Positions 1 to 60,343 of a DNA stretch of 64,000 nt are shown in pieces. The translations under genes were made by a program, and so were the position numbers. Within the stretch, counting starts at the first letter, position 1; every line of letters starts with the position of its first letter. The DNA is from Cinnamomum chago. Taxonomy: Eukaryota; Streptophyta; Magnoliopsida; Laurales; Lauraceae. Under the pieces are notes generated by a model. That model saw nothing but the letters and a program-made list of their open reading frames with translations. It was not told the DNA's origin and searched no databases. Where the stretch lies: NCBI GenBank assembly GCA_038049695.1, contig CP142458.1:43989501-44053500 (forward strand). Reading direction: 5' to 3'.

Positions 1-1000
1 ATTGGATTCCTCACTTTGTTTTCAATCCAAGTTGTTAACTTTCTTAATCATGCTTAGACAAAATCTTTGTTTTTCTTTCATAGCATGAGTCGTTTACTTG
101 GTTGAAACATTGCTTGTTGTTTTCATTCATTTAATCATTAGTAAAATTAGTTTGGTTTTGAAAACAACATTGCACATGCATCACATGTTCTAAGTTAATC
201 ATTTTCATACAACTTGTGATTCTTTGATTTTCATATCATTAACAAGTTATTTTACATACATGTGATTTGCATTAAACTTCAATCAAATCTTTTATGTGCC
301 TTAAACTTTGAAATGCTTTGAGCATACATTTGAATAAGCCTTCTTTTTAAACTTGATTGAAGTTATCACACACACACATCATGAGCATTCATCTTTGCAT
401 TCATATAGTGTTTGTGTGAGTTTGTTTTAAACTTTCAAATCCGCCTAATTAAGAGGCAATTTCATTGAGCTTAATTTGTATCTCTTAGAGTGATCTTTTG
501 TGAAGACACCATCTTAGAGAAATCTTTATTTGTAAAGGTTATTGCTTAGCCTAAGAAAAGCATTGTGTAAGGTTATTGCTTAGCCTAAGAAAAGCATCTT
601 GTAAAGGTTATTGCTTAGCCTAAGAAAAGCATTTTGTAAAGGTTATTGCTTAGCCTACAAAAGCACATTGAGAGGTTGTTGTTTAGCCTAGAAAAACAAC
701 ATTGTAAGGGTTATTGCTTAGCCTAGTAAAAAGCATAAATAGTGAAAATCCGGTGGGGTGATTGGATCACAAGCCGGTAGTGGACGTAGGCATTGAGGCC
801 GAACCACTATAAACCTTGGTGTTGTGGTGCTTGCATTTGTGGTGATTCATTTATTAGCTTCCGCATATTGTATGGTTAATCATCACATGTGACTAGTTTT
901 TGTTAAGAAATTAATATTTGTTTAAATTGGTCACAATTGTAGTTCACCCTATTCACCCCCCCCCCCCCCCCCTCTAGGGTTAGGATCCCAAGGACTTTCA
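1..1000 (+). repeat. X 5' LTR, 3' portion
   Basis: It matches the solo copy at 58443-60343 from 'attggattc' onward and ends in CA directly before a tRNA-iMet-type primer-binding site. It contains a six-unit tandem repeat (530-740), a motif with GAGGCCGAACCACTATAAA (about 797-815) and a long C run shortly before the end. The start of this LTR lies outside the window. Confidence 0.9.
530..745 (+). repeat. Variable-number ~33-bp tandem repeat in X LTR
   Basis: Six imperfect units of about 32-36 bp, each with a core like GGTTATTGCTTAGCCTAAGAAAAGCA. Each unit can fold on itself (CTTAG/CTAAG). The other X LTRs have different unit numbers: about six at 17940-18150, five at 59905-60090 and four, on the opposite strand, at 25295-25420. 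Confidence 0.9.
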
Positions 1001-5726: not shown

Positions 5727-8700
5727 TGTCGCGACCCCGGACCGGGAGATCCGGGATCGGGACTAAGGATTGATGTTAGGATGATCCACATCTGTTTAAT
5801 AATACCATACGATTTATTTAATTTCCCACAGGTGTCCGCGGTGAGGATTTCACAACCTTGCATGAATATTTCTTTTGTGTGCGGAAGCGTGTAGCAAATC
5901 AAATAGTAGACTATCGCTAGTCATAAAAGCAATGACATCAAGTGTAAATACTGTATCAGAATGAGCAATGATATATATATCGCAAGTTCCCCAATAATTG
6001 TTAAAGTTAGACAAAATATCAATTATTTACATTCCCCAAAAATAGAGGCCAACAAAGGCCAATATAAACAAAATAATAGCCCAAAAGAATGGTTAAGTAG
6101 ATCTCCCAAAATGTTACGCTTCTCGGAGCAATCTGATGTCTACATGACATCGTCAGCACGCCACTCAACTAGAGGTTGCGGTTCGCCTACCGCCTCCTCT
6201 GGCTCCTCCTCAAGGAAGCCGGCAACGGGACCTGAGTACCAAAGCAAAGGATCAGACACAACGGTCTGGCAAGAGAAAGCAAGGATACAACAATATATAA
6301 TGTAAGAAATCTCTTGGAAAGCGTGTAAATCTGATTAAACAATAACTCTCATAAAACAGGTAAATCATTTGCTATAAAACAAGTAAACAAGATAAAACAT
6401 ATCAGGTATCCAAGGATTCGGGAACTAACAAGGTGGCAATCACATAAAGCTAAGTCCTCTGTCACTAAAGTGACAACAGTATCACGGGACGTTGATCTCA
6501 GTCACACAAGGTGAGGAGAAACAACGTATACATATATACAATATAATTATACGGGAACGGGACCACGGTAGCGAACCGGGTATCGGGACGGGACCACGGT
6601 ATTAGACCGGGTATCGGGATCCAAACTGCAGCTGGCGGGACGGGAGAGGGATTTCCAAGTCAGTGGATTAGACTGACAAGGTATCCAAGCTTAGTGATGC
6701 CGACTCATAGGATAAAACCAATCGAGACATATCAAGTATTCAAGTACAGTCAATAAACGGGTAAAACGGGGGTGCTCAAGGGCACAATGTCTTTCCATAT
6801 CGGGCAATACATTTCGGGACAATTCACTGTCACTATTGTAGCTCCAAAGCTTTCGAGAAAACAAGTCATGCGATGAAATTCCTGGGAATGAGGTGAAACA
6901 ATGCACTATAATGAATTTCGGGCAAAATATCAATTTAGAATCCAATTAAGTGAATAGGGGTCCCGTATGTCTATTATAGCCCTTACTTGGTACTCTTTGA
7001 GTTTTGAGACATTCCGGGCTCCTTATGCACTTCTACGACTTTCCAAGATTTCAAATGACATATTTGTGATATGGTTTCTTTCACGGAGGCCTTGTACAGT
7101 GCCTCGAGGATCTCCTTCAACTGATAAAGCTCAGTGCTCGATCGAACCGGAGAAATTGGCTCGAATGAGGAATCCTCTGAAATCTGGGGAATTTCGGTCA
7201 CCTGGGGTCACCTGGCGGTTAGCCGCCGCTGGGGCATGCGGCTAGCCGCTGGGTGACCGCCCAGCTGACCGCCACTGTGCTGCAGGAAATACAGCTTACT
7301 GGAAGGCTGACCGCCCAAATACGGTTACCTGGCGGTTATCCGATGATGCGTTCGGCGGTTAGCCGCTGGGTAACCGTGGGGCTGACCGGATTTCAGGGGA
7401 GATTTCTGATGCTCTCGGGAAAGGTAACCGTGAGTGGCGGTTAGCCGCCGATGTCTCCGGCGGTTAGCCGCTGGCTAACCGTGAGGCTGACCGCATTCGG
7501 AGGTGGAAAATGAAGCTCTCTGGAAAAGTCACCGTGAATGGCGGTTGGCTGGCGGTTAACCGCCTATAGGTTCGGCAGTTAGCCGCTGGCTAACCGTGAG
7601 CTGACCGCCCGGTACAGAAAGGCTCACTGTGTTCAGTTTTGAGTCATTTTCTTCCTCCAAACCCTCTTCCTCACATCCACCAAGTCCTACAATTAACAAT
7701 GAGCTAATAGCTCCCCCAATGCATCTCTTTACACTTCTCCAAATCCCCACTATGAGTGCTCTCCATCACTTCTTCCATGTCAAGTCCAATGCAAAGAAAA
7801 AGGGAAGTAAACCATTTCACAAACATTCATCTAAGCTATCACAAGGACAATAAATGCTCTACTAACATGTTTATAAAACCTTGAATGAAACTATCAAGAT
7901 ACATTATGAGCATTTATTTCAAACAAACCTCATTAAATGAAAGTATGGAAAATCCATAAAGACTACACCAACTCATTTCAAAATTTAAAACATCCAATCA
8001 TTCACTTGCCTCTAGTCCAAGCTAGCTGAAAACAAGCCTTTTATCACCTCTATTGCTCAAAGCCAAGCTACAAATCAAAAATCCCAAAAACAACCCTAAA
8101 ATGGGTTACACAAGGAATGACAATGTACAAACCAACAATAATGCAAATGTAGTACCTCAAAGCCTAGGAGACAACAAATCTAGAAGATGAGAATGATCAC
8201 TTACCTTGAAGGTCCTCTAATGGAAATGGTAAGCTCAATGAAGGTCTTGGAATGGAGGGTTCTCTTCACAAATGGTACCAATGGAAAGCTTGAGAGATGT
8301 GGGAGTGATTGGTGAGCTTCATTGCTTGATTGATGAACTATTGGTGTGGCTTGGAGATGAAGAAGCAAGAAGAAGAAGAAGAAGAGAAAGCAAGGGAAAA
8401 ACCCTAGACTCAACAGGTTGTGCTGGAGCAAGAATGGGAAGTGAGTGAGAAGGAAGAGATGGGTTCTCTTTTGTTAACAAGTGAAGCTTGGGTCCCACAA
8501 CTTAAGGTACTATATTAGCTGAAATCATCTCTTTCGGGACCTCGGATGGATTCGACTAAGAAGGAAGAATTGATCGTCGAAATATCTAGTTTCCAAAAAG
8601 TATATGTTTCGCGGGTTTTGAGAATAATAAGTTTTGGGTACAGATTTGGTGTGCAATGACTGTTTTGCCCTCTAGGCTATGAAAATCGGGTTTCAGGATC

Positions 8701-8991: not shown

Positions 8992-9005
8992 TCCTCCACC
9001 CCTTA
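8992..9005 (-). other. E1 polypurine tract
   Basis: On the minus strand this reads TAAGGGGTGGAGGA and is followed at once by the LTR start TGTAAGACC. It is the expected plus-strand priming site. Confidence 0.85.
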
Positions 9006-12000
9006 GGGCATTTGGTCCTCCAAATGAAACATAAGACTCACCTCTGGTAGAAGATGTGGGTACTTCTTCTGCACTTGATCTCGTAATTCCCATGTTGCCT
9101 CTTCCGGTCCATGGTTCTCCCATAGCACCTTTACCCACTGAATAGTCCGAGTCCTCAACTCTTGTTCTTTTGTGTCGATGATCTCTACGGGCTTCTCTAC
9201 ATACGTAGCATCCCCTCTGATCTCTAATGGTTCATGCCGGAGTACATGCGAAGGGTCGGGGACATACTTCTTCAACATGGACACATGAAAGACGTTGTGT
9301 ACGCCAGATAACTCAGGTGGTAAGGCTAGTCTATAAGCCACTTCACCGATCTTGCTCACAATGTCATATGGTCCGATGTATCTCCGTGATAACTTGCCCT
9401 TCTGTCCAAACCTCAACGTTCCCCTTGTAGGTGACACTTTCAAGAAAACCTTATCTCTTTCCTCGAGCTGTAGATCTCTGCGGTGGGAGTCTGCAAAGCT
9501 CTTCTGTCTACTCCGGGACACTTTCAGACGCTCTTGAATCAACTTGATCTTGTCGCTGGTCTCACTAACCATAGTCGGTCCATGGAAACTGCGAGTGCCG
9601 ACTTCTTCCCAACAAACAGGTGTCCTACACCTTCTGCCATACAAGGCTTCGAAAGGAGCCATTCCAATGCTCGAGTGGTAGCTGTTATTGTACGCGAACT
9701 CGCACAACGGTAGAGTCTCATCCCATTGAGTCTTGAAATCTAACACACAAGCACGGAGCATATCCTCAAGAGTCTGAATCGTCCTCTCTGATTGGCCATC
9801 TGTCTGAGGGTGATACGCTGTGCTGAACTGTAATCTCGTACCCATAGACTCGTGCAATGTCTTCCAGAACCTCGAGACGAATCTGCTGTCTCTGTCGGAA
9901 GTGATAGAAACTGGCTGCCCGTGACGACTGATGATCTCGCTGACAAACAACTCTGTCAAAGGTAGCATGTGCATCTTCTTCCCAGTCTTCATAGCAAGGA
10001 AATGCGCTGACTTGGTGAGACGGTCCACAATGACCCAAATCGCATCGTTACCCCTGCTAGTCCTCGGTAATCCCGAAATAAAGTCCATGGTAATGTGCTC
10101 CCATTTCCATTCCGGAATTTCTAATGGTTGTAACAAGCTTGGAGGCCTCTGATGCTCTGCCTTTATCAACTGACAAGTCATACAACGGGAGACAAACGCT
10201 GCAATCTCTCTCTTCATATTGTTCCACCAAAATTTGCCCTTCAAGTTCTGATACATCTTTGTGCTGCCTGGATGCATAGAGTACTTAGTGCTATGAGCCT
10301 CAGTCATGATGTCATTCCTCAAATCTTCGATGTTAGGCACACACAGACGGTCACGGTAATACAAAACTCCATCAACGATACGAAAATCAGGACGTTCTTC
10401 TATATACTCTGAAATCTTAACCAACTCTGGATCCTGTAACTGACTGTCCTTGATCTTCTGAATGAAAGAAGGTTCTGACACTGTCATATTAGCCAACACG
10501 ACACCCTTCTTTAGAGGTTGCACGTCTAGACTCAACTCTTCAAATTGCTCAAAGATACACGTGCCACTTAGGTTTGCCAAACCTACTGATTTCCTACTCA
10601 AGGCATCTGCAACTACATTGGCCTTCCCCGGGTGATACTTGATTGGAAAATCATAATCTTTTATATATTCCATCCATCTTCTCTGCCTCATGTTCAAATC
10701 TTTCTGTGAAAACAGATACTGTAAGCTGCGGTGGTCGGAGTGGACTTCGAACTGCTCTCCATAGAGGTAATGTCTCCACATCTTCAACGCGAACACAACC
10801 GCTGCTAACTCCAAATCATGGGTGGCATAGTTCTTCTCGTACTCTTTCAACTGTCGAGATCCATAAGCAATCACTTTTCCCTCTTGCATCAACACGCAAC
10901 CAAGTCCAACATTCGAAGCGTCGGTAAAAATGGTAAAACCGCCGCTCCCGGATGGCAAAGTAAGGACTGGTGCTGTAGTCAATCTCTTCTTTAGCTCTTG
11001 GAAACTCTCTTCACACTGCTCTGTCCACACATATGGTGCATTTTTCCTTGTCAACTTCGTCAAAGGTGACGCAATCGACGAAAATCCCTGCACAAACCTC
11101 CTGTAATAGCCTGCCAATCCTAGAAAACTCCTGATTTCTGTCACATTCTTCGGTCTTTCCCAATTCACTACTGCTTCAACCTTGGACGGATCTACCGATA
11201 AACCTTCTCTAGAGATAATGTGCCCCAAAAATGCTACTTGGTCTAGCCAAAATTCACACTTGTTAAGCTTTGCATACAGCTGGTTCTCTCTCAAGAATTG
11301 CAATGCAATCCTCAAATGTTCTTCGTGCTCTTCCTTGGTCTTGGAGTACACCAAAATGTCATCTATGAACACTACAACAAACTGATCCAGATACTCTACA
11401 AATATCTTGTTCATCAAAGCCATGAACACTGCCGGTGCATTAGTCAGCCCAAATGGCATCACTAGGAACTCATAGTGGCCATATCTTGTCCGGAAAGCTG
11501 TTTTCAACACATCTGCTTCTCTAACTCTCAACTGATGGTAGCCGGATCTCAAATCAATCTTCAAAAAGTAAGATGCACCTTGCAACTGATCAAACAATTC
11601 ATCTATTCTTGGTAATGGATACTTGTTCTTGATGGTCACTTGATTCAATCTTCTGTAATCAATACACATCCTCATCGAACCATCTTTCTTCTTAACAAAC
11701 AACACTGGAGCTCCCCATGGTGAAACACTCGGTCTCACAAAACCTTTGTCCAACAACTCTTGCAATTGGGTCTTCAATTCCCCCAACTCTGCTGGAGCCA
11801 TTTTATATGGTGCAATAGATATCGGAGCGGTCCCTGGTAGCAACTCGATAGTGAAATCAATCTCTCTCATGGGTGGCAAACCTGGGATCTCCTCCGGAAA
11901 AACATCCGGGAACTCCCAAACAATTGGAATCTCCTCCACCCCTTGGGACCGTTTATCCTCCGTGATAAACGCTAAATAAGCCTCACATCCACTTCTCCAA

Positions 12001-13772
12001 AGTCTGTCAGCCTTCAACACTGAAACAAACCTTGCACGAGGACTCCTCCTCTCTCCCTGAAACAACACCCCTGCTGGTGTCTCATCTAACTTGAAAGTAA
12101 GGGTCTTATGGAAACAATCCATTGTGGCATGGTACCCTGCCAGCCAATCCATCCCTAGGATGACATCATAATCAAACATCTCCAAAGAAATGAGATCTGC
12201 GGTTAAAACCACTTCTCCTATCTGGACTGTGCAACTAGGATAAAAGGTTCTACAAACAACTTGTTTACCTACTGGGGTTGCCACAGTCAAAATGAACTCC
12301 AGTTCTATAGCATGCATATCAATCAACTTAGCAAATTTATGGGATACGAAGGAGTGTGTGGAGCCAGGGTCAAACAAAATCATAGCTTTAATCCCACAAA
12401 CAAGGAGTGTACCTTCCACTACGTTACCCGCTGCCTCTGCATCCACTCTATTGACTCCGTAGATTTGGCCTCGCTGCTGTGGCCTGCCTTGGGGTGCATT
12501 CCTATTCTGCTGTGGTGGACGCTGCTGTCCCTGTTGACGAGCTTGCTGCTGTGGCTGCTGCTGCTGTCTAAATTGTTGCTGCTGTGGTGCTTGCTGCTGA
12601 AGTGGCCTAGGCTGGTTTTGGACAACCAATGCATGTTGTGGTGGTGGTGGACGTTGTGGCCCTTGCTGCTGCTGCTGATGGCCCTGTCTGTTTGGCCTAG
12701 GGCAATCCCTCATCCTATGGTCCATCGAACCACATCTGAAGCATGCTCCCGTCATAGTGCGACATTCAGCACTAGGATGGTTCTTCCCACAGTGGGTGCA
12801 TACCACTGGATTCTGCACATTAGGCCCTGTCCTCTGCCTCTTATTCTGATGGTTCCTTTGTTGCTGGAAATTCTGCTGCTGCTGTGCTTCTCCTTTGCCT
12901 TGCACTTTGAGAATCTTGTTGTGGAAGTTTTCGAACTTGTAGGCTCTCTTCACAGCTTCATCAAAAGTTACCGGTGGTACCACTCCGGTGGCATCTCTCT
13001 CAATGAAGGGATTAAGCCCCTCAAAGAATTTGGCAATCTTCTTCTCAACGGTATCCACCAACTCCGGGGCATACCTGGACAATCTCTCGAACTTAGTGAG
13101 GTATTCGAGAACTGTCATGTTCCCTTGGACAAGCTGTTGAAACTCTATGGCCTTCTGCTTCTTTATATGGGCAGGTACATATTTGTCATGAAACTGCCTC
13201 TTGAAATTTGTCCAAATCTCAGCATCAGGCATAGCTCTGTACTCCTCCCTGACTGTCTTCCACCATCTATCAGCCGTACCAACGAAAAGGGATGATGCTA
13301 GCTTCACTCTATCTGCTCTTGTACACTGAAAGATCTCAAAAATGTTCTCGGTATGCTCTAGCCAATCATCTGCAGCTATTGGATCTTCTTCCCCAAGGAA
13401 TTCCTTCGGAGCTCTTTTCCGGAACCGTTCAAACAAGGCATTTGGATCATGTTGCCTTTGATTTATGACTATAGCTGGTTGGGGTTGAACTGGTTCGGGT
13501 CTCCTCTGCAAGACCTCAAGTAACTGCCTCTGCATTTCAGTCATCTCCCTAGCATAGTCTTCCTCTCTCTTTAGCATTTGCTCTTGCAATCTAGCTTGAT
13601 TTTCATTGGCCTGACGCTGCTGATCAAGCATTGCCCTCATCATATCTTGAAATTGATTAGGTGGATTATTCTCCACCATATCCTCTTCTAGAGGCCCTGT
13701 ATGATTACTATTGCTTGCCGTAGGGTTACCATTCAATGGTCTCTTACGTGGAGGCATGATGCTGCAAAACAA
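9003..13772 (-). CDS. gag-pol: E1 gag-pol polyprotein with chromodomain (1589 aa)
   Basis: One uninterrupted ORF; the likely start is the MPPRKRP methionine at residue 6. Parts in order: gag domain about 107-260; two knuckles at about 325-357, the second CX2CX4HX4C; a glutamine-rich linker to about 435; protease around DPGST (468-472); reverse transcriptase about 690-850 with FIDD at 802-805; RNase H about 945-1060; integrase zinc-binding HHCC at 1159-1200 and core acidic residues D1230, D1293 and E1329 (D,D-35-E); GPY/F motif at 1467; chromodomain about 1523-1575. The order PR-RT-RH-INT-chromodomain defines chromoviruses, and sequence style and PBS fit Tekay/Del. The proteins would form particles, copy the RNA and integrate; the chromodomain is thought to guide integration to heterochromatin. 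Confidence 0.95.
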
Positions 13773-13881
13773 ATTGTTAGCACATAATAATATAAAGGGT
13801 CACACATTGCTCACACGATACTATCTAACGGATCCTCGCCACGTCCTTAGGATTTCTAGTTTCTTTTAATTGCTTGAAACA

Positions 13882-13902: not shown

Positions 13903-16900
13903 TGTCGCGACCCCGGACCGGGAGATCCGGGATCGGGACTAAGGATTGATGTTAGGATGATCCACATCTGTTTAATAATACCATACGATTTATTTAATTT
14001 CCCACAGGTGTCCGCGGTGAGGATATCACAACCTTGCATGAATATTTCTTTTGTGTGCGGAATCGTGTAGCAAATCAAATAGTAGACTATCGCTAGTCAT
14101 AAAAGCAATGACATCAAGTGTAAATACTGTATCAGAATGAGCAATGATATATATATCGCAAGTTCCCCAATAATTGTTAAAGTTAGACAAAATATCAATT
14201 ATTTACATTCCCCAAAAATAGAGGCCAACAAAGGCCAATATAAACAAAATAATAGCCCAAAAGAATGGTTAAGTAGATCTCCCAAAATGTTACGCTTCTC
14301 GGAGCAATCTGATGTCTACATGACATCGTCAGCACGCCACTCAACTAGAGGTTGCGGTTCGCCTACCGCCTCCTCTGGCTCCTCCTCAAGGAAGCCGGCA
14401 ACGGGACCTGAGTACCAAAGCAAAGGATCAGACACGACGGTCTGGCAAGAGAAAGCAAGGATACAACAATATATAATGTAAGAAATCTCTTGGAAAGCGT
14501 GTAAATCTGATTAAACAATAACTCTCATAAAACAGGTAAATCATTTGCTATAAAACAAGTAAACAAGATAAAACATATCAGGTATCCAAGGATTCGGGAA
14601 CTAACAAGGTGGCAATCACATAAAGCTAAGTCTTCTGTCACTAAAGTGACAACAGTATCACGGGACGTTGATCTCAGTCACACAAGGTGAGGAGAAACAA
14701 CGTATACATATATACAATATAATTATACGGGAACGGGACCACGGTAGCGAACCGGGTATCGGGACGGGACCACGGTATTAGACCGGGTATCGGGATCCAA
14801 ACTGCAGCTGGCGGGACGGGAGAGGGATTTCCAAGTCAGTGGATTAGACTGACAAGGTATCCAAGCTTAGTGATGCCGACTCATAGGATAAAACCAATCG
14901 AGACATATCAAGTATTCAAGTACAGTCAATAAACGGGTAAAACGGGGGTGCTCAAGGGCACAATGTCTTTCCATATCGGGCAATACATTTCGGGACAATT
15001 CACTGTCACTATTGTAGCTCCAAAGCTTTCGAGAAAACAAGTCATGCGATGAAATTCTTGGGAATGAGGTGAAACAATGCACTATAATGAATTTCGGGCA
15101 AAATATCAATTTAGAATCCAATTAAGTGAATAGGGGTCCCGTATGTCTATTATAGCCCTTACTTGGTACTCTTTGAGTTTTGAGACATTCCGGGCTCCTT
15201 ATGCACTTCTACGACTTTCCAAGATTTCAAATGACATATTTGTGATATGGTTTCTTTCACGGAGGCCTTGTACAGTGCCTCGAGGATCTCCTTCAACTGA
15301 TAAAGCTCAGTGCTCGATCGAACCGGAGAAATTGGCTCGAATGAGGAATCCTCTGAAATCTGGGGAATTTCGTCACCTAGGGTCACCTGGCGGTTAGCCG
15401 CCGCTGGGGCATGCGGCTAGCCGCTGGGTGACCGCCCAGCTGACCGCCACTGTGCTGCAGGAAATACAGCTTACTGGAAGGCTGACCGCCCAAATACGGT
15501 TACCTGGCGGTTATCCGATGATGCGTTCGGCGGTTAGCCGCTGGGTAACCGTGGGGCTGACCGGATTTCAGGGGAGATTTCTGATGCTCTCGGGAAAGGT
15601 AACAGTGAGTGGCGGTTAGCCGCCGATGTGTCCGGCGGTTAGCCGCTGGCTAACCGTGAGGCTGACCGCATTCGGAGGTGGAAAATGAAGCTCTCTGGAA
15701 AAGTCACCGTGAATGGCGGTTGGCTGGCGGTTAACCGCCTATAGGTTCGGCGGTTAGCCGCTGGCTAACCGTGAGCTGACCGCCCGGTACAGAAATTCTC
15801 ACTGTGTTCAGTTTTGAGTCATTTTCTTCCTCCAAACCCTCTTCCTCACATCCACCAAGTCCTACAATTAACAATGAGCTAATAGCTCCCCCAATGCATC
15901 TCTTTACACTTCTCCAAATCCCCACTATGAGTGCTCTCCATCACTTCTTCCATGTCAAGTCCAATGCAAAGAAAAAGGGAAGTTAACCATTTCACAAACA
16001 TTCATTTAAGCTATCACAAGGACAATAAATGCTCTACTAACATGTTTATAAAACCTTGAATGAAACTATCAAGATACATTATGAGCATTTATTTCAAACA
16101 AACCTCATTAAATGAAAGTATGGAAAATCCATAAAGACTACACCAACTCATTTCAAAATTTAAAACATCCAATCATTCACTTGCCTCTAGTCCAAGCTAG
16201 CTGAAAACAAGCCTTTTATCACCTCTATTGCTCAAAGCCAAGCTACAAATCAAAAATCCCAAAAACAACCCTAAAATGGGTTACACAAGGAATGACAATG
16301 TACAAACCAACAATAATGCAAATGTAGTACCTCAAAGCCTAGGAGACAACAAATCTAGAAGATGAGAATGATCACTTACCTTGAAGGTCCTCTAATGGCA
16401 ATGGTAAGCTCAATGAAGGTCTTGGAATGGAGGGTTCTCTTCACAAATGGTACCAATGGAAAGCTTGAGAGATGAGGGAGTGATTGGTGAGCTTCATTGC
16501 TTGATTGATGAACTATTGGTGTGGCTTGGAGATGAAGAAGCAAGAAGAAAAAGAAGAGAAAGCAAGGGAAAAACCCTAGACTCAACAGGTTGTGCTGGAG
16601 CAAGAATGGGAAGTGAGTGAGAAGGAAGAGATGGGTTCTCTTTTGTTAACAAGTGAAGCTTGGGTCCCACAACTTAAGGTACTATATTAGCTGAAATCAT
16701 CTCTTTCGGGACCTCGGATGGATTCGACGAAGAAGGAAGAATTGATCGTCGAAATATCTAGTTTCCAAAAAGTATATGTTTCGCGGGTTTCGAGAATAAT
16801 AAGTTTTGGGTACAGATTTGGTGTGCAATGACTGTTTTGCCCTCTAGGCTATGAAAATCGGGTTTCGAGATCTCGAATGAAGACGGGATCAACATGAAAG

Positions 16901-17745: not shown

Positions 17746-18402
17746 GCCTTCTTTTTAAACTTGATTGAAGTTATCACACACACACATCATGAGCATTCAT
17801 CTTTGCATTCATATAGTGTTTGTGTGAGTTTGTTTAAACTTTCAAATCCGCCTAATTAAGAGGCAATTTCATTGAGCTTAATTTGTATCTCTTAGAGTGA
17901 TCTTTTGTGAAGACACCATCTTAGAGAAATCTTTATTTGTAAAGGTTATTGCTTAGCCTAAGAAAAGCATTGTGTAAGGTTATTGCTTAGCCTAAGAAAA
18001 GCATCTTGTAAAGGTTATTGCTTAGCCTAAGAAAAGCATTTTGTAAAGGTTATTGCTTAGCCTACAAAAGCACATTGAGAGGTTGTTGTTTAGCCTAGAA
18101 AAACAACATTGTAAGGGTTATTGCTTAGCCTAGTAAAAAGCATAAATAGTGGAAATCCAGTGGGGTGATTGGATCACAAGCCGGTAGTGGACGTAGGCAT
18201 TGAGGCCGAACCACTATAAACCTTGGTGTTGTGGTGCTTGCATTTGTGGAGATTCATTTATTAGCTTCCGCATATTGTATGGTTAATCATCACATGTGAC
18301 TAGTTTTTGTTAAGAAATTAATATTTGTTTAAATTGGTCACAATTGTAGTTCACCCTATTCACCCCCCCCCCCCTCTAGGGTTAGGATCCCAAGGACTTT
18401 TA
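17746..18402 (+). repeat. X 3' LTR, right part
   Basis: It matches 338-1000 almost base for base, including the six-unit 33-bp tandem repeat, the GGCCGAACCACTATAAA motif and the C run. It ends the X element on the right. Confidence 0.92.
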
Positions 18403-38747: not shown

Positions 38748-41700
38748 TTAGGGCATTTGGTCCTCCAAATGGAACATAAGACTCACCTCTGGTAGAAGAT
38801 GTGGGTATTTCTTCTGCACTTGATCTCGTAATTCCCACGTTGCCTCTTCCGGTCCATGATTCTCCCACAATACTTTCACCCACTGAATAGTCCGAGCCCT
38901 CAACTCTTGTTCCTTTGTATCGATGATCTCAACGGGCTTCTCTACATAGGTAGCATCCTCTCTGATCTCTAATGGTTCATGTCGGAGTACATGCGAAGGA
39001 TCGGGAACATACTTCTTCAACATAGACACATGGAAGACGTTGTGTACACCAGATAGCTCAGGTGGTAAGGTCAATCTATAGGCCACGTCACCAATCTTGC
39101 TCACAATGTCATAGGGTCCAATGTATCTCCGTGATAGCTTGCCCTTCTGTCCAAATCTCAATGTTCCCCTTGTAGGTGACACTTTCAAGAAAACCTTATC
39201 TCCTTCCTTGAACTGTAGATCTCTGCGATGGGAGTCTGCATAGCTCTTCTGTCTACTCCGAGATACTTTCAGATGCTCTTGAATCAACTTGATCTTGTCG
39301 CTGGTCTCACTAACCATAGTCGGTCCATGGAAACTACGAGTGCCGACTTCTTCCCAACAAACAGCTGTCCTACACCTTCTGCCATACAAAGCCTCAAAAG
39401 GAGCCATCCCAATGCTCGAGTGGTAGCTGTTATTGTAAGCGAACTCGCACAACGGTAGAGTCTCATCCCCCTGAGTCTTGAAATCTAACACACAAGCACG
39501 GAGCATGTCCTCTAAAGTCTGAATTGTCCTCTCTGACTGGCCATCTATCTGAGGGTGATAAGCTATGCTGAATTGTAATCTCGTACCCATAGACTCATGC
39601 AATGTCTTCCAGAACCTCGAAACGAATCTGCTGTCTCTGTCGGATGTAATAGAAACTGGCTGCCCGTGACGACTGACAATCTCGCTGACAAACAACTCTG
39701 CCAAAGGTAGCATGTGCATCTTCTTCGCGGTCTTCATAGCAAGGAAATGCGCTGACTTGGTGAGACGGTCCACAATGACCCATATCGCGTCGTTGCCTCT
39801 GCTAGTCCTCGGTAATCCCGAAATAAAGTCCATGGTAATGTGCTCCCATTTCCATTCCGGGATTTCTAATGGCTGTAACAAGCCTGGAGGCCTCTGATGC
39901 TCTACCTTTATCAACTGACAAGTCATACAACGGGAGACAAACGCTGCAATCTCTCTCTTCATATTGTTCCACCAAAATCTTCCTTTCAAGTTCTGATACA
40001 TCTTTGTGCTGCCTGTATGCATAGAGTACTTCGTGCTATGAGCCTCAGTCATGATGTCGTTCCTCAGATCTTCAATGTTAGGCACACACAGACGGTCACG
40101 GTAGTACAAAACTCCATCAACAACACGAAAGTCAGGACGTTCTGCTATATGCTCTGAAATCTTAACCAACTCTGGATCTTGCAACTGATTGTCATTGATC
40201 TTCTGAACGAAAGAAGGTTCTGACACCGTCATGTTAGCTAACAAAACACCCTTCCTTAGAGGCTGTAAGTCTAAACTCAACTCTTCAAACTGCTCAAAAA
40301 TACAAGTGCCACTTAGGTTCGCCAAGCCTACTGATTTCCTACTCAAGGCATCTGCAACTACATTGGCCTTCCCCGGGTGGTACTTGATTGGAAAATCATA
40401 GTCCTTGATATATTCCATCCATCTTCTCTGCCTCATGTTCAAATCTTTCTGTGAAAACAGATACTGTAAGCTACGGTGGTCGGAGTGGACTTCGAACTGT
40501 TCTCCATAGAGGTAATGTCTCCACATTTTCAACGCGAACACAACCGCTGCTAACTCCAAATCATGGGTGGCATAGTTCTTCTCGTGCTCTTTGAACTGTC
40601 GAGATCCATATGCAATCACCTTTCCCTCTTGCATCAACACACAACCAAGTCCAACATTAGAAGCATCGGTAAAAATGGTGAAACCACCTCTTCCGGATGG
40701 CAAAGTAAGGACTGGTGCTGAAGTCAATCTCTTCTTTAGCTCTTGGAAACTCTCTTCACACTGCTCTGTCCACACGTATGGTGCATTTTTCCTTGTCAAC
40801 TTCGTCAAAGGTGACGCAATCGACGAAAAACCTTGCACAAACCTCCGATAATAACTTGCCAATCCTAGAAAACTCCTGATTTCTGTCACATTCTTCGGTC
40901 TCTCCCAATTCACTACTGCTTCAATCTTGGACGGATCCACTGACAAACCTTCTCTTGAGATAATGTGCCCCAGAAATGCTACTTGGTCTAGCCAAAATTC
41001 ACACTTGTTAAGCTTTGCATACAGCTGATTCTCTCTCAAGAGTTGCAATGCAATCCTCAAATGCTCTTCATGCTCTTCCTTGGTCTTGGAGTACACCAAG
41101 ATGTCATCAATAAACACTACAACAAACTGATCCAGATACTCTGCAAATATCTTGTTCATCAATGCTATGAACATTGCCGGTGCATTTGTCAACCCAAATG
41201 GCATCACTAGGAACTCATAGTGGCCATATCTTGTCCGGAAAACTGTTTTCAACACGTCTGATTCTCTAACTCTCAGCTGATGGTAACCGGATCTCAAGTC
41301 AATCTTCGAAAAGTATGATGCACCCTGCAACTGATCAAACAATTCATCTATTCTTGGTAAAGGGTATTTGTTCTTGATGGTCACTTGGTCCAATCTTCTG
41401 TAATCAATACACATCCTCATCGAACCATCCTTCTTCTTAACAAACAACACTGGAGCTCCCCATGGTGAAACACTTGGTCTCACAAAACCTTTGTCCAACA
41501 ACTCTTGCAACTGGGTCTTCAACTCTTCCAACTCTGCTGGAGCCATCCTATATGGTGCAATCGATATAGGAGCAGTCCCTGGTAGCAACTCGATAGTGAA
41601 ATCAATCTCTCTCATGGGTGGCAAACCTGGAATCTCCTCCGGAAAAACATCCGAGAATTCCCAAACAATTGGGATCTCCTCCACCCCTTGGGACCGTTTA

Positions 41701-42884
41701 TCCTCCGTGATAAACGCTAAATAAGCTTCACATCCACTTCTCAAAAGTCTGTCAGCCTTCAACGCTGAAACAAACCCTGCACGAGGATTCCTCCTCTCTC
41801 CCTGAAACGACACTCCTTCTGGTGTCTCAACCAACTTGAAAGTGAGGGTCTTATGGAAACAATCCATTGTGGCATGGTACCCTGCCAGCCAATCCATCCC
41901 TAGGATGACATCATAATCAAACATCTCCAAAGAAATGAGATCTGTGGTTAAAACCACTTCTCCTATCTGGACTGTGCAACTAGGGTAAAAGGTTCTACAA
42001 ACAACTTGTTTACCTACTGGGGTTGCCACAGTCAAAATGAACTCCAGTTCTATAGCATGCATATCAATCAACTTAGCAAACTTATGGGACACGAAAGAAT
42101 GTGTAGAGCCAGGGTCAAACAAAATCATAGCTTTAATCCCACAAACAAGAAGTGTACCTTCTACAACATTACCCACTGCCTCTGCATCCACTCTATTGAC
42201 TCCGTAGATTTGCCCTCGCTGTTGTGGCCTAATCTGTGCCTGATGTGGCCTACCATGTGGTGCATTCCTGTTCTGCTGTGGTGGACGCTGTTGTCCCTGT
42301 TGACGAGCTTGTTGTTGTTGTTGCTGTGGTCTATGCTGCTGCTGCTGTGGTGCTTGTTGCTGTAGTGGCCTTGCCTGATTCTGAACAACTATTGCATTCT
42401 GTGGTGCTGGTGGACGCTGTGCCCCTTGCTGCTGCTGGTTCTGCCTATTCTGCCTTGGGCAATCTCTCATCTGATGGGCCATGGAGCCACATCTGAAACA
42501 TGCTCCTGTCAAGGTACGGCATTGTGCACTCTCATGGGTTTGTACCTCATGGTTCTTCCCACAATGGGTACAAACCAATGGGCCCTGAGCATTTGGTTTT
42601 GTCCTCTGTCTCTTGTTCTGATGGTTCCTTTGCTGGTGGTTCTGTTGTTGCTGAGCTTGTCCCTTGCCTTGGACTCTGAGAATCTTGCTGTGGAAGTTTT
42701 CGAACTTGCAGGCTCTCTTCACAGCTTCATCAAAAGTTACCGGTGGTACCACTCCAGTGGCATCTCTCTCAATGAAGGGATTGAGTCCCTCAAAGAACTT
42801 GGCAATCTTCTTCTCAACGGAATCCAAAATAATAGTTGCATTATATGAAACACTGGAGAAGATAGCGAACTGCGACACAGACAT
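38748..42884 (-). pseudogene. gag-pol: E2 gag-pol, incomplete (chromovirus)
   Basis: A long open stretch matches E1 from the end of the gag domain onward: CCHC knuckles ([14 protein letters not shown]), Gln-rich linker, protease DPGST, RT with FIDD, RNase H, integrase HHCC and DDE, GPY/F and chromodomain, ending in the same residues as E1 (HLEDQMP). The first ~20 residues of the open stretch belong to the flanking DNA, not to the element. The 5' part of gag is absent, so the element is a fossil even though much of pol reads through. It would have the E1 activities by homology only. Confidence 0.88.
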
Positions 42885-42892
42885 GATTCATA

Positions 42893-55663: not shown

Positions 55664-55677
55664 ATCTTAGAATTGAG

Positions 55678-55979
55678 GTTTTTACCGGAAAAACCACTTT
55701 ATGTGGTCAGTACACCGAACATGGAACATTAGGCAAACATGCACCTAACAGGGAATCCGTACAGGATTCTTAATTTTTTTTTTTTGCCATTTTTTTTGTA
55801 GTCGAATCTGACCTTCAGTTTCAGCATTGGAGGTCGAATTCGACCCTGAGATAGAAAGTGACCCTAATACATTTTAGTTTCCTGCGTCGAATTTGACCTT
55901 GTAAGAAACACTCGAAGGTCACATTCGACCGGAAATGTACATGAGTTTTTCTGACTTTAGGTATTGGGAGGGCAGTAAA
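55678..55979 (+). repeat. Left TIR of Pack-MULE-like element
   Basis: Inverted match of 56954-57241. Carries GGTCGAATTCGACC near 55832 and three weaker versions. Confidence 0.85.
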
Positions 55980-55987
55980 TGTACCTA

Positions 55988-56338
55988 ATACAACATCCTC
56001 AACATAAAGAGATTTATGAGTATGTAGAAACTTTACCTGTAAAGATGTAGGAAGCAGGCTATGCACCTGATACAACATCAGTTCTTCATGATGTTGATCA
56101 AGAAGAGAAGGAAACAATTCTTCGTGTCCACAATGAGAAGCTTGTTGTTGCATTTGGGATCATGAATATAGTTCAAGGGACAATGATCCAGATCATCAAG
56201 AACCTACAAGTTTGTGGAGATTGTCATACCGCAATTAAATTTATTTCCAAGATTATCAGTGGACAGATTGTTGTGAGAGATTCAAATCGTTTTCATCATT
56301 TCAAAGACGGGCTCTGCTCTTGTGGGGACTATTGGTGA
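55988..56338 (+). pseudogene. DYW domain of a PPR protein, captured fragment
   Basis: About 116 codons in one frame. It starts at QHPQHKEIY, the usual beginning of the E+/DYW region, and passes through [13 protein letters not shown], the HxE motif ([10 protein letters not shown]), the zinc-binding [17 protein letters not shown] and ends CSCGDYW followed by TGA at 56336-56338. DYW domains are cytidine deaminases that edit C to U in organelle RNA; the intact parent would be a nuclear gene for an organelle-targeted protein. One in-frame TAG stands at 56048-56050, just before EAGY. No PPR repeats, start codon or transit peptide are present, because homology begins right beside the left TIR. So it is a non-functional C-terminal fragment. 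Confidence 0.9.
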
Positions 56339-56454
56339 GATTGAATAAGAAAAAATAAATTTTACGGTACAAACTCATTGGGCTAGATTTCCAGTTAATT
56401 GTGCTGTCCTCATTTTGATGCTTGTGGGCAGATTGCTCTACTTCCCAACCAATT

Positions 56455-56660
56455 TTTATTATGCAAGATTGTCAATTGAGGGACTGTTTTGAGGATTCAA
56501 ATCATTTCATATATTCAAGAACTGGTTATGCTCCTGTTGGGCTTATTGGTGATATCACTTTATAAGGAATTTTGAAAACCAATTCTGATTCTTATGGTAC
56601 AAACCGATTGAGTTGGGTTCCACAGCTGTGCAGTCTTCACATGCTGCTTGTGGCCAAGAC
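56455..56660 (+). pseudogene. Decayed second copy of DYW 3' end and 3' flank
   Basis: Phrases at 56465-56560 (AAGATTGTCAATTGAGG, GAGGATTCAAATCATTT, GCTCCTGTTGGGCTTATTGGTGA) follow the order of 56253-56340 in the fragment above. The following ~80 bases match its 3' flank (TACGGTACAAACTCATTG against TATGGTACAAACCGATTG). This is a tandem duplication that has lost coding sense. Confidence 0.7.
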
Positions 56661-56953
56661 TGGCTTCCTTGTTTCATAGTTAAGGTCTGGCCTTTTTAGG
56701 CCTTGAGGCCTCTTGTATTCTTCAACGATATTGACTTCTGAAGATAAAAGAAATATCATCAAAGAGCTAACTACAAGAATCATCATCTTAGCCTCATCCA
56801 GACATCCAATCATTCTGGGGTCGGCAGCTAACAACAGGAATATTTAAGAATAGTTTAATTCCATATTTGTAATTTAAGAGGTGATTTTCATGCTTTTTCT
56901 TCATTTCCATTTAATTGAAATGAAAATGTCAATGACAAGCTGAAAAACTTTTG

Positions 56954-57241
56954 TACTGCCTTCCCTATACCTAAAGTCAGAAAAACTCATGTATATTTCC
57001 GGTCGAATGCGACCTTCGAGTGTTTCTTACAAGGTTAAATTCGATGCAGGGAACTAAAATGTATTAGGGTCACTTTCTATCTTATGGTCGAATTCGACCT
57101 CCTGTGCTGAAACTGAAGGTCGAATTCGACCACAAAAAAAGGTAAAAAATTTTTGGAATCCGATTCCCTATTAGGTGCATGATTGCCTAATGTTCCATGT
57201 TCGGTGTACTGACCACGTAAAGTGGTTTTTTCGGTAAAAAC
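56954..57241 (-). repeat. Right TIR of Pack-MULE-like element
   Basis: Inverted match of 55678-55979, differing by scattered substitutions and small indels. Carries GGTCGAATTCGACC near 57087 and 57119. Confidence 0.85.
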
Positions 57242-57250
57242 ATCTTGAAT

Positions 57251-58442: not shown

Positions 58443-60343
58443 TGTTAGGGATTTTGTATTTGCAATTTGGTGGATGCATGTGCACTTTAGCATCATTTGA
58501 ATTCTCACACTTGCATTGTTTTAAGAAACCTTGAAATCTAGTTTTATACATGCATAGCTTTTAAGATTTGGAAAAGCTTTTGTTTTATGCATTTTTGGTT
58601 TTAAACTTGGATGCATTAGTTTTGAAACCCAAACTCTTTTGAAAACCTATTTCCTTGTGCATTATATTTGGAAAATCATGTTGAGAATTTAGGTTTGAGT
58701 CTTGCATACATTCTTCACAAAAAGAATCATTTTTGTATGCATTTTCATTTGAAAAGAGTTTTATCAAATCAAGCTAGCCTTTGGTTTTAATCTTTTGAAT
58801 CTCTTTAGGCTTTGGGTGTTTCATGTTTGTAAATGATTTAAAACATGTTTTTTAAGCTTGATTTAGTGGCCCATAAAGATCCCCAAAGAAAATCTTCGAA
58901 AATCCAAGAAATGGAAAAATGGGCTGTTTTTGGCAGGTGTCTCGGTCGACCGAGACTTGCCTCTCGGTCGACCGAGACAACTGTCGGGCGACTGTGCAAT
59001 TTCTGAACTGCAAGCTCCAACGGTCATTTTTTTTTACCGTTGTGCTTTACCGGTCGACCGAGACCCCTCCTGGTCGACCGAGACAACTAGCCGTTGGACA
59101 CTTTTTTGCTATAAAGTCCATTCATTTCCAACCTTTTTCAAGCTTGAAACTTGAACCTTTGAGACCATTTTGGAGCCATTGAAAGGGGATGAAGTTGGAA
59201 AGGCTAGGAGGTCTTTAGGAGAGCTAAAGCTTGGGATTAATGAGTTAAACCTCCAAGTAAGCTCTACCTTTATTAATCATAGTTATGTGCTTTGTTTAAA
59301 CTTTTGGTATATGATAATTAGCATAATAACTATGATGTGTTGAATCCATTCTTCTTCTAATCTTTGGTCTAATTAAGATTGGATTCTTCACCTTTGTTTT
59401 CAATCCAAGTTGTTAACTTTTTAAATCATGCTTAGACAAAATCTTTGTTTTTCTTTCATAGCATGAGTCTTTTACTTGGTTGAAACATTGCTTGTTGTTT
59501 TCATTCATTTAAGCATTAGTAAAATTAATTTGGTTTTGAAAACAACATGCACATGCATCACATGTTCTAAATTAGTCATTTTTATACAACTTGTTAGTTC
59601 TTGATTTTTATGTCATAAACAAGTTGAATTTCATACATGTGATTTGCATAAGACTTCAATCAAATCTTTTATGAGCTTTAAACTTTGAATTGCTTTAAGC
59701 AATATATTGAGAGAGCCTTCGTTTTAAACTTGATTGGAGTCATCACACACACACATCATGAGCATATACTTTTGCATGCATAGAGTGTTTGTGTGAGTTT
59801 GTTTTAAACTTTCATATTAGCCTATTCAAGAGGCAATTTCATTTGAGCTTAAATTGTAATCTCTTAGAGTGATCTTGTAAAGACACTTTCTTAGAGAAAG
59901 CTTTATTTGTAAGGTTATTGCTTAGCCTAAGAAAAGCATTTTGTAAAGGTTATTGCTAAGCCTATAAAAGCACATTGAGAGGTTATTGCTTAGCCTTGAA
60001 AAGCATCTTGTAAAGGTTGTTGTTGAGCCTAGAAAAACAACATTGTATAGGTTATTGCTTAGCCTTTGAAAAAGCATATTAGTGGAAATCCGGTGGGGTG
60101 ATTGGATCACAAGCCGGTAGTGGATGTAGGCACGTTGGCCGAACCACTATAAATATTGTGTCGTGGTGATTGATTTGTGGTGATTGTTTTGTTTAGCTTC
60201 CGCATATTGTATGGTTTATCATCACATGTGACTAGTTTTTGTTAAGATATTAAAATTGGTTTAAATTGGTCACAATTGTAGCTCACCCTATTCACCCCCC
60301 CCCCCCCCCCCCCCTCTAGGGTTAGGATCCTCAAGGACTTTCA
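58443..60343 (+). mobile_element. Solo X LTR (1901 bp)
   Basis: Runs TGTTAGGGATTTTG...AAGGACTTTCA, with the perfect target duplication CTGAT at 58438-58442 and 60344-60348. It is the most complete X LTR in the window and shows the full order: AT-rich U3, four GGTCGACC sites, TATAAA at 59110-59115, 33-bp repeats (59905-60090), GGCCGAACCACTATAAA motif, C run, end. Confidence 0.95.
58943..59115 (+). promoter_or_regulatory. Palindrome cluster and TATA box of solo X LTR
   Basis: CGGTCGACCG at 58943-58952, 58965-58974 and 59051-59060, GGTCGACC at about 59072-59079, an AACGGT/ACCGTT inverted pair around a T run, and TATAAA at 59110-59115. Same order as at 5439-5601. Confidence 0.7.

Follow-up and report, generated by a model that had tools for sequence, protein, structure and literature searches.

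Pack-MULEs are a well-known phenomenon. In rice and other plants, they combine the terminal repeats and 9-bp target duplications of Mutator-like elements (MULEs) with a gene fragment in place of a transposase, and they occur in several copies whose donor lies elsewhere in the genome. An element sharing all these properties is described here from Cinnamomum chago. It lies in a 64,000-nucleotide stretch of DNA (C8:43989501-44053500; hereafter, the window) of a 1.06-Gb assembly of 14 contigs. Two properties set it apart from other Pack-MULEs: it carries the DYW end of a PPR gene, and its repeat family has two further cargoes. A comparable system is grapevine Cactavine-5, a CACTA family that contains a PPR coding and 3'-untranslated piece (PMC2528002). 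Two copies of this kind are reported there, in an element of the CACTA type that has a transposase frame (PMC2528002), while the present element has ends of the MULE kind, 9-bp duplications, and at least 17 loci. Among animal Pack-TIR elements such as Ssk-FB4, multicopy ones are ascribed to template switching (PMC8277862), and the joint filler found here fits this route. Ssk-FB4 is reported to be an animal protein family with signs of positive selection (PMC8277862), whereas the copies described here show no coding constraint. A MULE with a DYW cargo was not found in the literature searched, outside of which most subscription journals lie.

We estimate at about 95% the probability that the window element is one copy of a multicopy, non-autonomous Pack-MULE, the PPR tail of which was captured once, moved in trans, and then decayed. 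It is a well-documented further multicopy Pack-MULE and represents a phenomenon already known, leaving the picture of plant transposons or RNA editing unchanged. Its record of gene capture is unusually complete, with the donor, joints, filler, target duplications, transposase relative, and 17 loci in one assembly. Furthermore, it adds a PPR-DYW gene tail to the list of MULE cargoes and provides a clean test case for the question of whether captured copies affect the parent gene.

The transposon is 1,570 bp long (window positions 55675 to 57244) and is bounded by long terminal inverted repeats (TIRs) of the MULE kind (Table 1). The two repeats are identical at 267 of 291 aligned bases (92%), with three small gaps. 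In line with the original prediction, which was made from the sequence of the window, TIRs of about 300 bp enclose a DYW piece, and this arrangement recurs in the genome. The coding match had been placed within 10 bases of the TIR edge; it actually starts 17 bp away (55994 versus 55977). Except for the 16-bp filler and the 9-bp joint, the interior (55978-56953) is donor derived. The captured segment contains the end of the E+ motif, the whole DYW domain, the stop codon, and approximately 600 bp of 3' flank, and the element has no transposase of its own. An Rfam scan of the window gave nothing at the gathering threshold, and a tRNA scan of the window detected none.

Table 1. Layout of the element, in window positions
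Feature	Position	Strand	Remarks
Left terminal inverted repeat, 303 bp	55675..55977	.	Starts with GAGGTTTTTACCGG; contains sites related to GGTCGAATTCGACC
Junction filler, 16 bp	55978..55993	.	With the next four bases, resembles donor DNA ~70 bp deeper in the captured segment
Captured PPR-DYW donor segment	55994..56944	+	From C6, L059:1581-2533
DYW reading frame, 114 codons and stop	55994..56338	+	TAG at codon 19; open at 56051-56335
Partial second copy of the DYW end	56455..56555	+	Already present in the donor
Short joint, captured segment to right repeat (inner edge)	56945..56953	.	
Right terminal inverted repeat, 291 bp	56954..57244	.	Terminus GGTAAAAACATC in the window copy

The cargo is a fragment of a host gene, and the parent PPR-DYW gene that the original prediction proposed to search for was found on another contig, C6. 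When the 95-residue domain was searched against the genome in six frames, C6:77924637, in a 347-residue open frame, ranked highest among non-element matches (89%), and the remaining non-element matches listed reached at most 65%. The donor locus matches query positions 17-967 at 93%. Its 347-residue frame, the last exon, contains PPR, E, E+, and DYW domains, and an upstream 420-residue frame is PPR-like by eye. Judging by these frames, the donor appears to be an intact two-exon gene, apparently split by an intron. The 4.2-kb donor locus gave no match to the repeats. The Arabidopsis ortholog of the donor may be At3g26782, MEF14. MEF14 is listed as required for matR editing (PMC3982070).

Two ideas about the capture had to be revised in the light of the donor. 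The predominantly intronless structure of PPR genes had been thought to suit capture; this fits poorly, because the donor frame is itself interrupted, apparently by an intron, and the element took no more than the end of the last exon together with the 3' flank. In addition, the DYW end is present twice in the window (56240-56341 versus the partial second copy, 76% over 103 columns), and this had been attributed to a duplication inside the element. Since the donor too has a second, incomplete DYW end further downstream (79% over 73 columns), we reject a tandem duplication made within the element; the element contains one contiguous stretch of ~951 bp, duplication included.

The genome searches for other copies, also proposed with the original prediction, yielded counts that are lower bounds. 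The search with the left repeat gave 40 scored matches of 321 candidates. A 25-base pattern derived from the repeat, with up to three mismatches allowed, detected 100 end sites (49 and 51 by strand, the two of the window included); read backwards, the same pattern had no site in the whole genome. With the interior as query, at least 14 long matches (88 to 93%) were obtained besides the query itself, one of them being the donor (C6:77924580). At least 14 long DYW-class elements are present, counting the window copy, and at least 17 loci contain the captured piece between repeats. Fourteen of the latter are nearly whole and three are truncated: L062 retains only the 3'-flank part, and L063 and L064 only the DYW start. 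Repeat sequence flanks every one of the 17 loci on both sides, although it is broken or shortened in some.

We observed two further arrangements in this family. The DYW-class element at L064:3605-5413 is interrupted by ~1.6 kb, and the same 65 bp of element sequence occur on either side of the interruption. The insert carries a version of the TTGTAAAGGTTATTGCTTAGCCT tandem repeat, which is also found in the window (530-737, 17937-18144, and 59907-60080). Moreover, four identical repeat-end sites occur at a spacing of ~10.65 kb on C4 (86831699, 86842353, 86853005, and 86863650), which resembles a tandem array whose unit includes one end of the transposon family.

Target duplications were analyzed in 28 elements, of which 15 belong to the DYW class, 8 carry the second cargo, and 5 the third; L053, L054, and L061 were excluded because an end was broken or missing. 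An exact 9-bp duplication was detected in 10 of the 28, and at least 8 of 9 positions matched in 15, leaving 13 with fewer. When left and right flanks of different elements were paired as a control, exact matches were found in 0 of 756 combinations and matches of at least 8 of 9 positions in 6 of 756. The 9-bp duplication that the original prediction suggested looking for is therefore present family-wide but not in the window copy, the flanks of which match at 4 of 9 positions, with no clean duplication; a gapped reading is possible and weak. Target duplications of 3 bp and 8 bp define CACTA and hAT transposons, respectively. Exact 3-bp duplications were seen in 2 of 28 elements and exact 8-bp duplications in 1 of 28, compared with 10 of 28 for 9 bp, and both alternatives were rejected.

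A long relative with the same outer repeats was found at C6:60200885-60212849 (L072, L073). It is 11,965 bp long, with repeat ends 11.9 kb apart, and is flanked by exact 9-bp TTGAATTTA duplications. Similarity of its ends to the query repeat is confined to the outermost 171 and 182 bases, with further partial matches inside. This relative encodes a degraded MULE transposase domain (PF10551, 24.9 bits, below the cut-off of 27.6; E 2.7e-5) and a SWIM zinc finger (PF04434, 32.0 bits, above the cut-off of 19.6; E 8.8e-8), in frames that are broken. With PF10551 below the cut-off and the frames broken, the long relative is no evidence of an active transposase for these ends. In a genome search with PF10551, none of the 150 scored matches (of 3,015 candidates) was near a listed repeat end, as judged by eye. 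The target duplications, the transposase relative, and the donor locus show, as originally proposed, that a Mutator-like element took up the DYW end and its 3' flank. In the long relative, a frame for a plant mobile domain is also present (PF10536, E 3.9e-9) and may represent a further captured gene fragment.

The joints and the divergence among copies bear on how the cargo was acquired. At the left joint, a version of ACCTGATACAACATC precedes the first captured bases. This string occurs once in the donor locus, 71 bp further inside (L059:1652 versus 1581). A version of the filler is present in 13 of the 14 long copies and absent from L055; in L040, the first captured codons are lost. Interiors diverge by a mean of 9.3% between copies (91 pairs) and by 7.6% between copy and donor, and in 21 columns at least 85% of the copies agree against the donor. 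The shared columns and the divergence fit one capture followed by a burst, and a single capture is also indicated because the same left joint is found in 13 of 14 long copies. A lack of relationship between the DYW piece and the two ~300-bp segments, or their arrival by separate insertions, has next to no chance of being correct. The sole point for separate insertions is the window copy without a clean target duplication, but 14 long loci share the arrangement, and in 13 of these the left joint contains a version of one and the same filler. Chance similarity of the two arms was rejected on the basis of the arm alignment and the genome copies, and separate insertions of the TIRs and the DYW piece were rejected on the basis of the recurrent arrangement and the shared joint.

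Because the joint filler resembles DNA within the captured piece, a template switch during repair or replication is likely. For multicopy animal Pack-TIRs, template switching followed by transposition has been proposed (PMC8277862). In the Pack-MULE described here, an element with ~300-bp repeats would have acquired, once and by such a switch in repair or replication, ~951 bp comprising the end of the last exon of the PPR-E-DYW gene and its 3' flank. A MULE transposase presumably provided in trans would then have moved the element, generating the 9-bp target duplications and leaving at least 17 loci, and the DYW passenger has decayed without detectable selection.

As predicted, the window copy contains a DYW domain in which HxE, CGDCH, and the terminal DYW are legible. 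At codon 19, the donor glutamine codon CAG is changed to TAG, so that only the last 95 codons are open. These 95 codons match the Pfam DYW_deaminase profile over its entire length (positions 1-93 of 93; E 9.8e-43), and the best match to DYW domains of solved structures was at 1.6e-43. Among the 14 copies, private codon changes comprised 63 nonsynonymous, 23 synonymous, and 2 stop changes, while 61.7, 22.2, and 4.1, respectively, were expected without selection from the mutation spectrum of the copies themselves. The pooled dN/dS among copies was 0.87. Compared with the donor, dN was lower than dS in 14 of 14 copies (pooled dN 0.055, dS 0.150). This difference would reflect constraint in the lineage of the donor, but it is also compatible with constraint that acted on the captured piece before the burst.

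We considered whether the captured domain could be a working stand-alone DYW deaminase supplied in trans. Such a protein has a precedent in DYW1, a stand-alone DYW protein of solved structure (7w86) that is reported to be able to act in trans with CRR4 (PMC3982070). The window copy, with its last 95 codons open and a full-profile match, and four copies without a stop or a frame-breaking indel (L042, L043, L051, and L056) could be read in the same way. However, in-frame stops are found in 8 of the 14 copies and indels in others, the private changes are as under no selection, and the first ATG of the 95 open codons in the window copy lies inside the domain, downstream of HxE. We regard this alternative as very improbable. 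The coding constraint expected of a functional DYW editing factor was not detected on the DYW frame, and the four intact frames are by themselves no evidence of function. A coding function was rejected, the private changes matching the expectation without selection. From the codon comparisons, the DYW piece is a decayed passenger, with selection undetectable among the copies, and it is presumably without function at present.

A different effect of the element would be regulatory: read-through or antisense transcripts might give rise to small RNAs that damp the parent PPR gene. The window copy has 230 exact 21-base windows in common with the last exon and 3' region of the donor, 862 of 1,659 donor bases are represented in the 14 long copies taken together, and the element has the form of an inverted repeat. 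One source refers to work by others on small-RNA effects of Pack-MULEs (PMC8277862). A sequence match alone is, however, expected following any capture, and the palindromic GGTCGAATTCGACC sites in the repeats are not notably conserved. We consider damping of the parent gene by this route unlikely.

The GGTCGAATTCGACC palindrome noted earlier in the TIRs is real, and four GGTCGAATTCGACC or related sites are present in the majority string of 54 repeat arms. Conservation across these arms was 0.895 in the 56 motif columns and 0.888 in the 244 others. When CpG was left out, the values were 0.931 and 0.893, a small difference. Special conservation of the GGTCGAATTCGACC sites was rejected, since their conservation hardly exceeds that of the remaining arm sequence. 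Such sites may, as originally proposed, have promoter or small-RNA activity.

The same repeats also enclose a second cargo of ~950 bp (8 copies analyzed) and a third of ~557 bp (6 copies analyzed, including a shortened one). Just inside one repeat, 8 of 8 second-cargo copies contain TTTTTCAGCTTGTCAT or a version of it that differs at no more than three positions, compared with 0 of 6 third-cargo copies. In the DYW class, the last part of TTTTTCAGCTTGTCAT continues into donor DNA, and the donor itself carries that part. Two origins are conceivable: in a DYW element, the PPR piece gave way to the ~950-bp cargo, or the joint first arose at an identity of ~13 bp. Because ~13 bp at the second-cargo joint are contiguous with PPR-donor DNA in the DYW class, one speculative reading is that a single MULE repeat family swaps cargoes by repair within elements and that its DYW class might feed small RNAs directed at the parent gene, a combination that we hold to be unlikely. 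In a tree of the 54 repeat arms, 1 of 51 inner branches was starred; the second-cargo arms lie to one side of a branch (93/88), and the first- and third-cargo arms are intermixed, so that the tree favors no particular order of captures and neither of the two origins of the joint.

The donor gene of the second cargo was not found among the 40 scored of 78 candidates. One ~100-bp part of this cargo recurs at more than 20 places. At C6:9926451-9927309, 84% identity to query positions 3-916 of the second cargo was observed without a listed repeat end; from its sequence, this locus may be a decayed element or the donor. Several matches to the third cargo, of up to 89% and without listed repeat ends, are found at C3:119.63-119.96 Mb (near 119.9 Mb). 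This is probably the third-cargo donor locus and perhaps a tandem gene cluster.

Outside the element but near it, an inverted pair of 22 bp built on TCTCGGTCGACCGAGA, with a spacing of 6 bp, is located at window positions 58934-58983. Elsewhere in the window, identical 131-codon stretches (5910-6305 and 14086-14481) flank a long Ty3-type retrotransposon frame (9003-13799), as would be expected if they were the long terminal repeats of a recently inserted element. Another frame related to it is present at 38748-42887.
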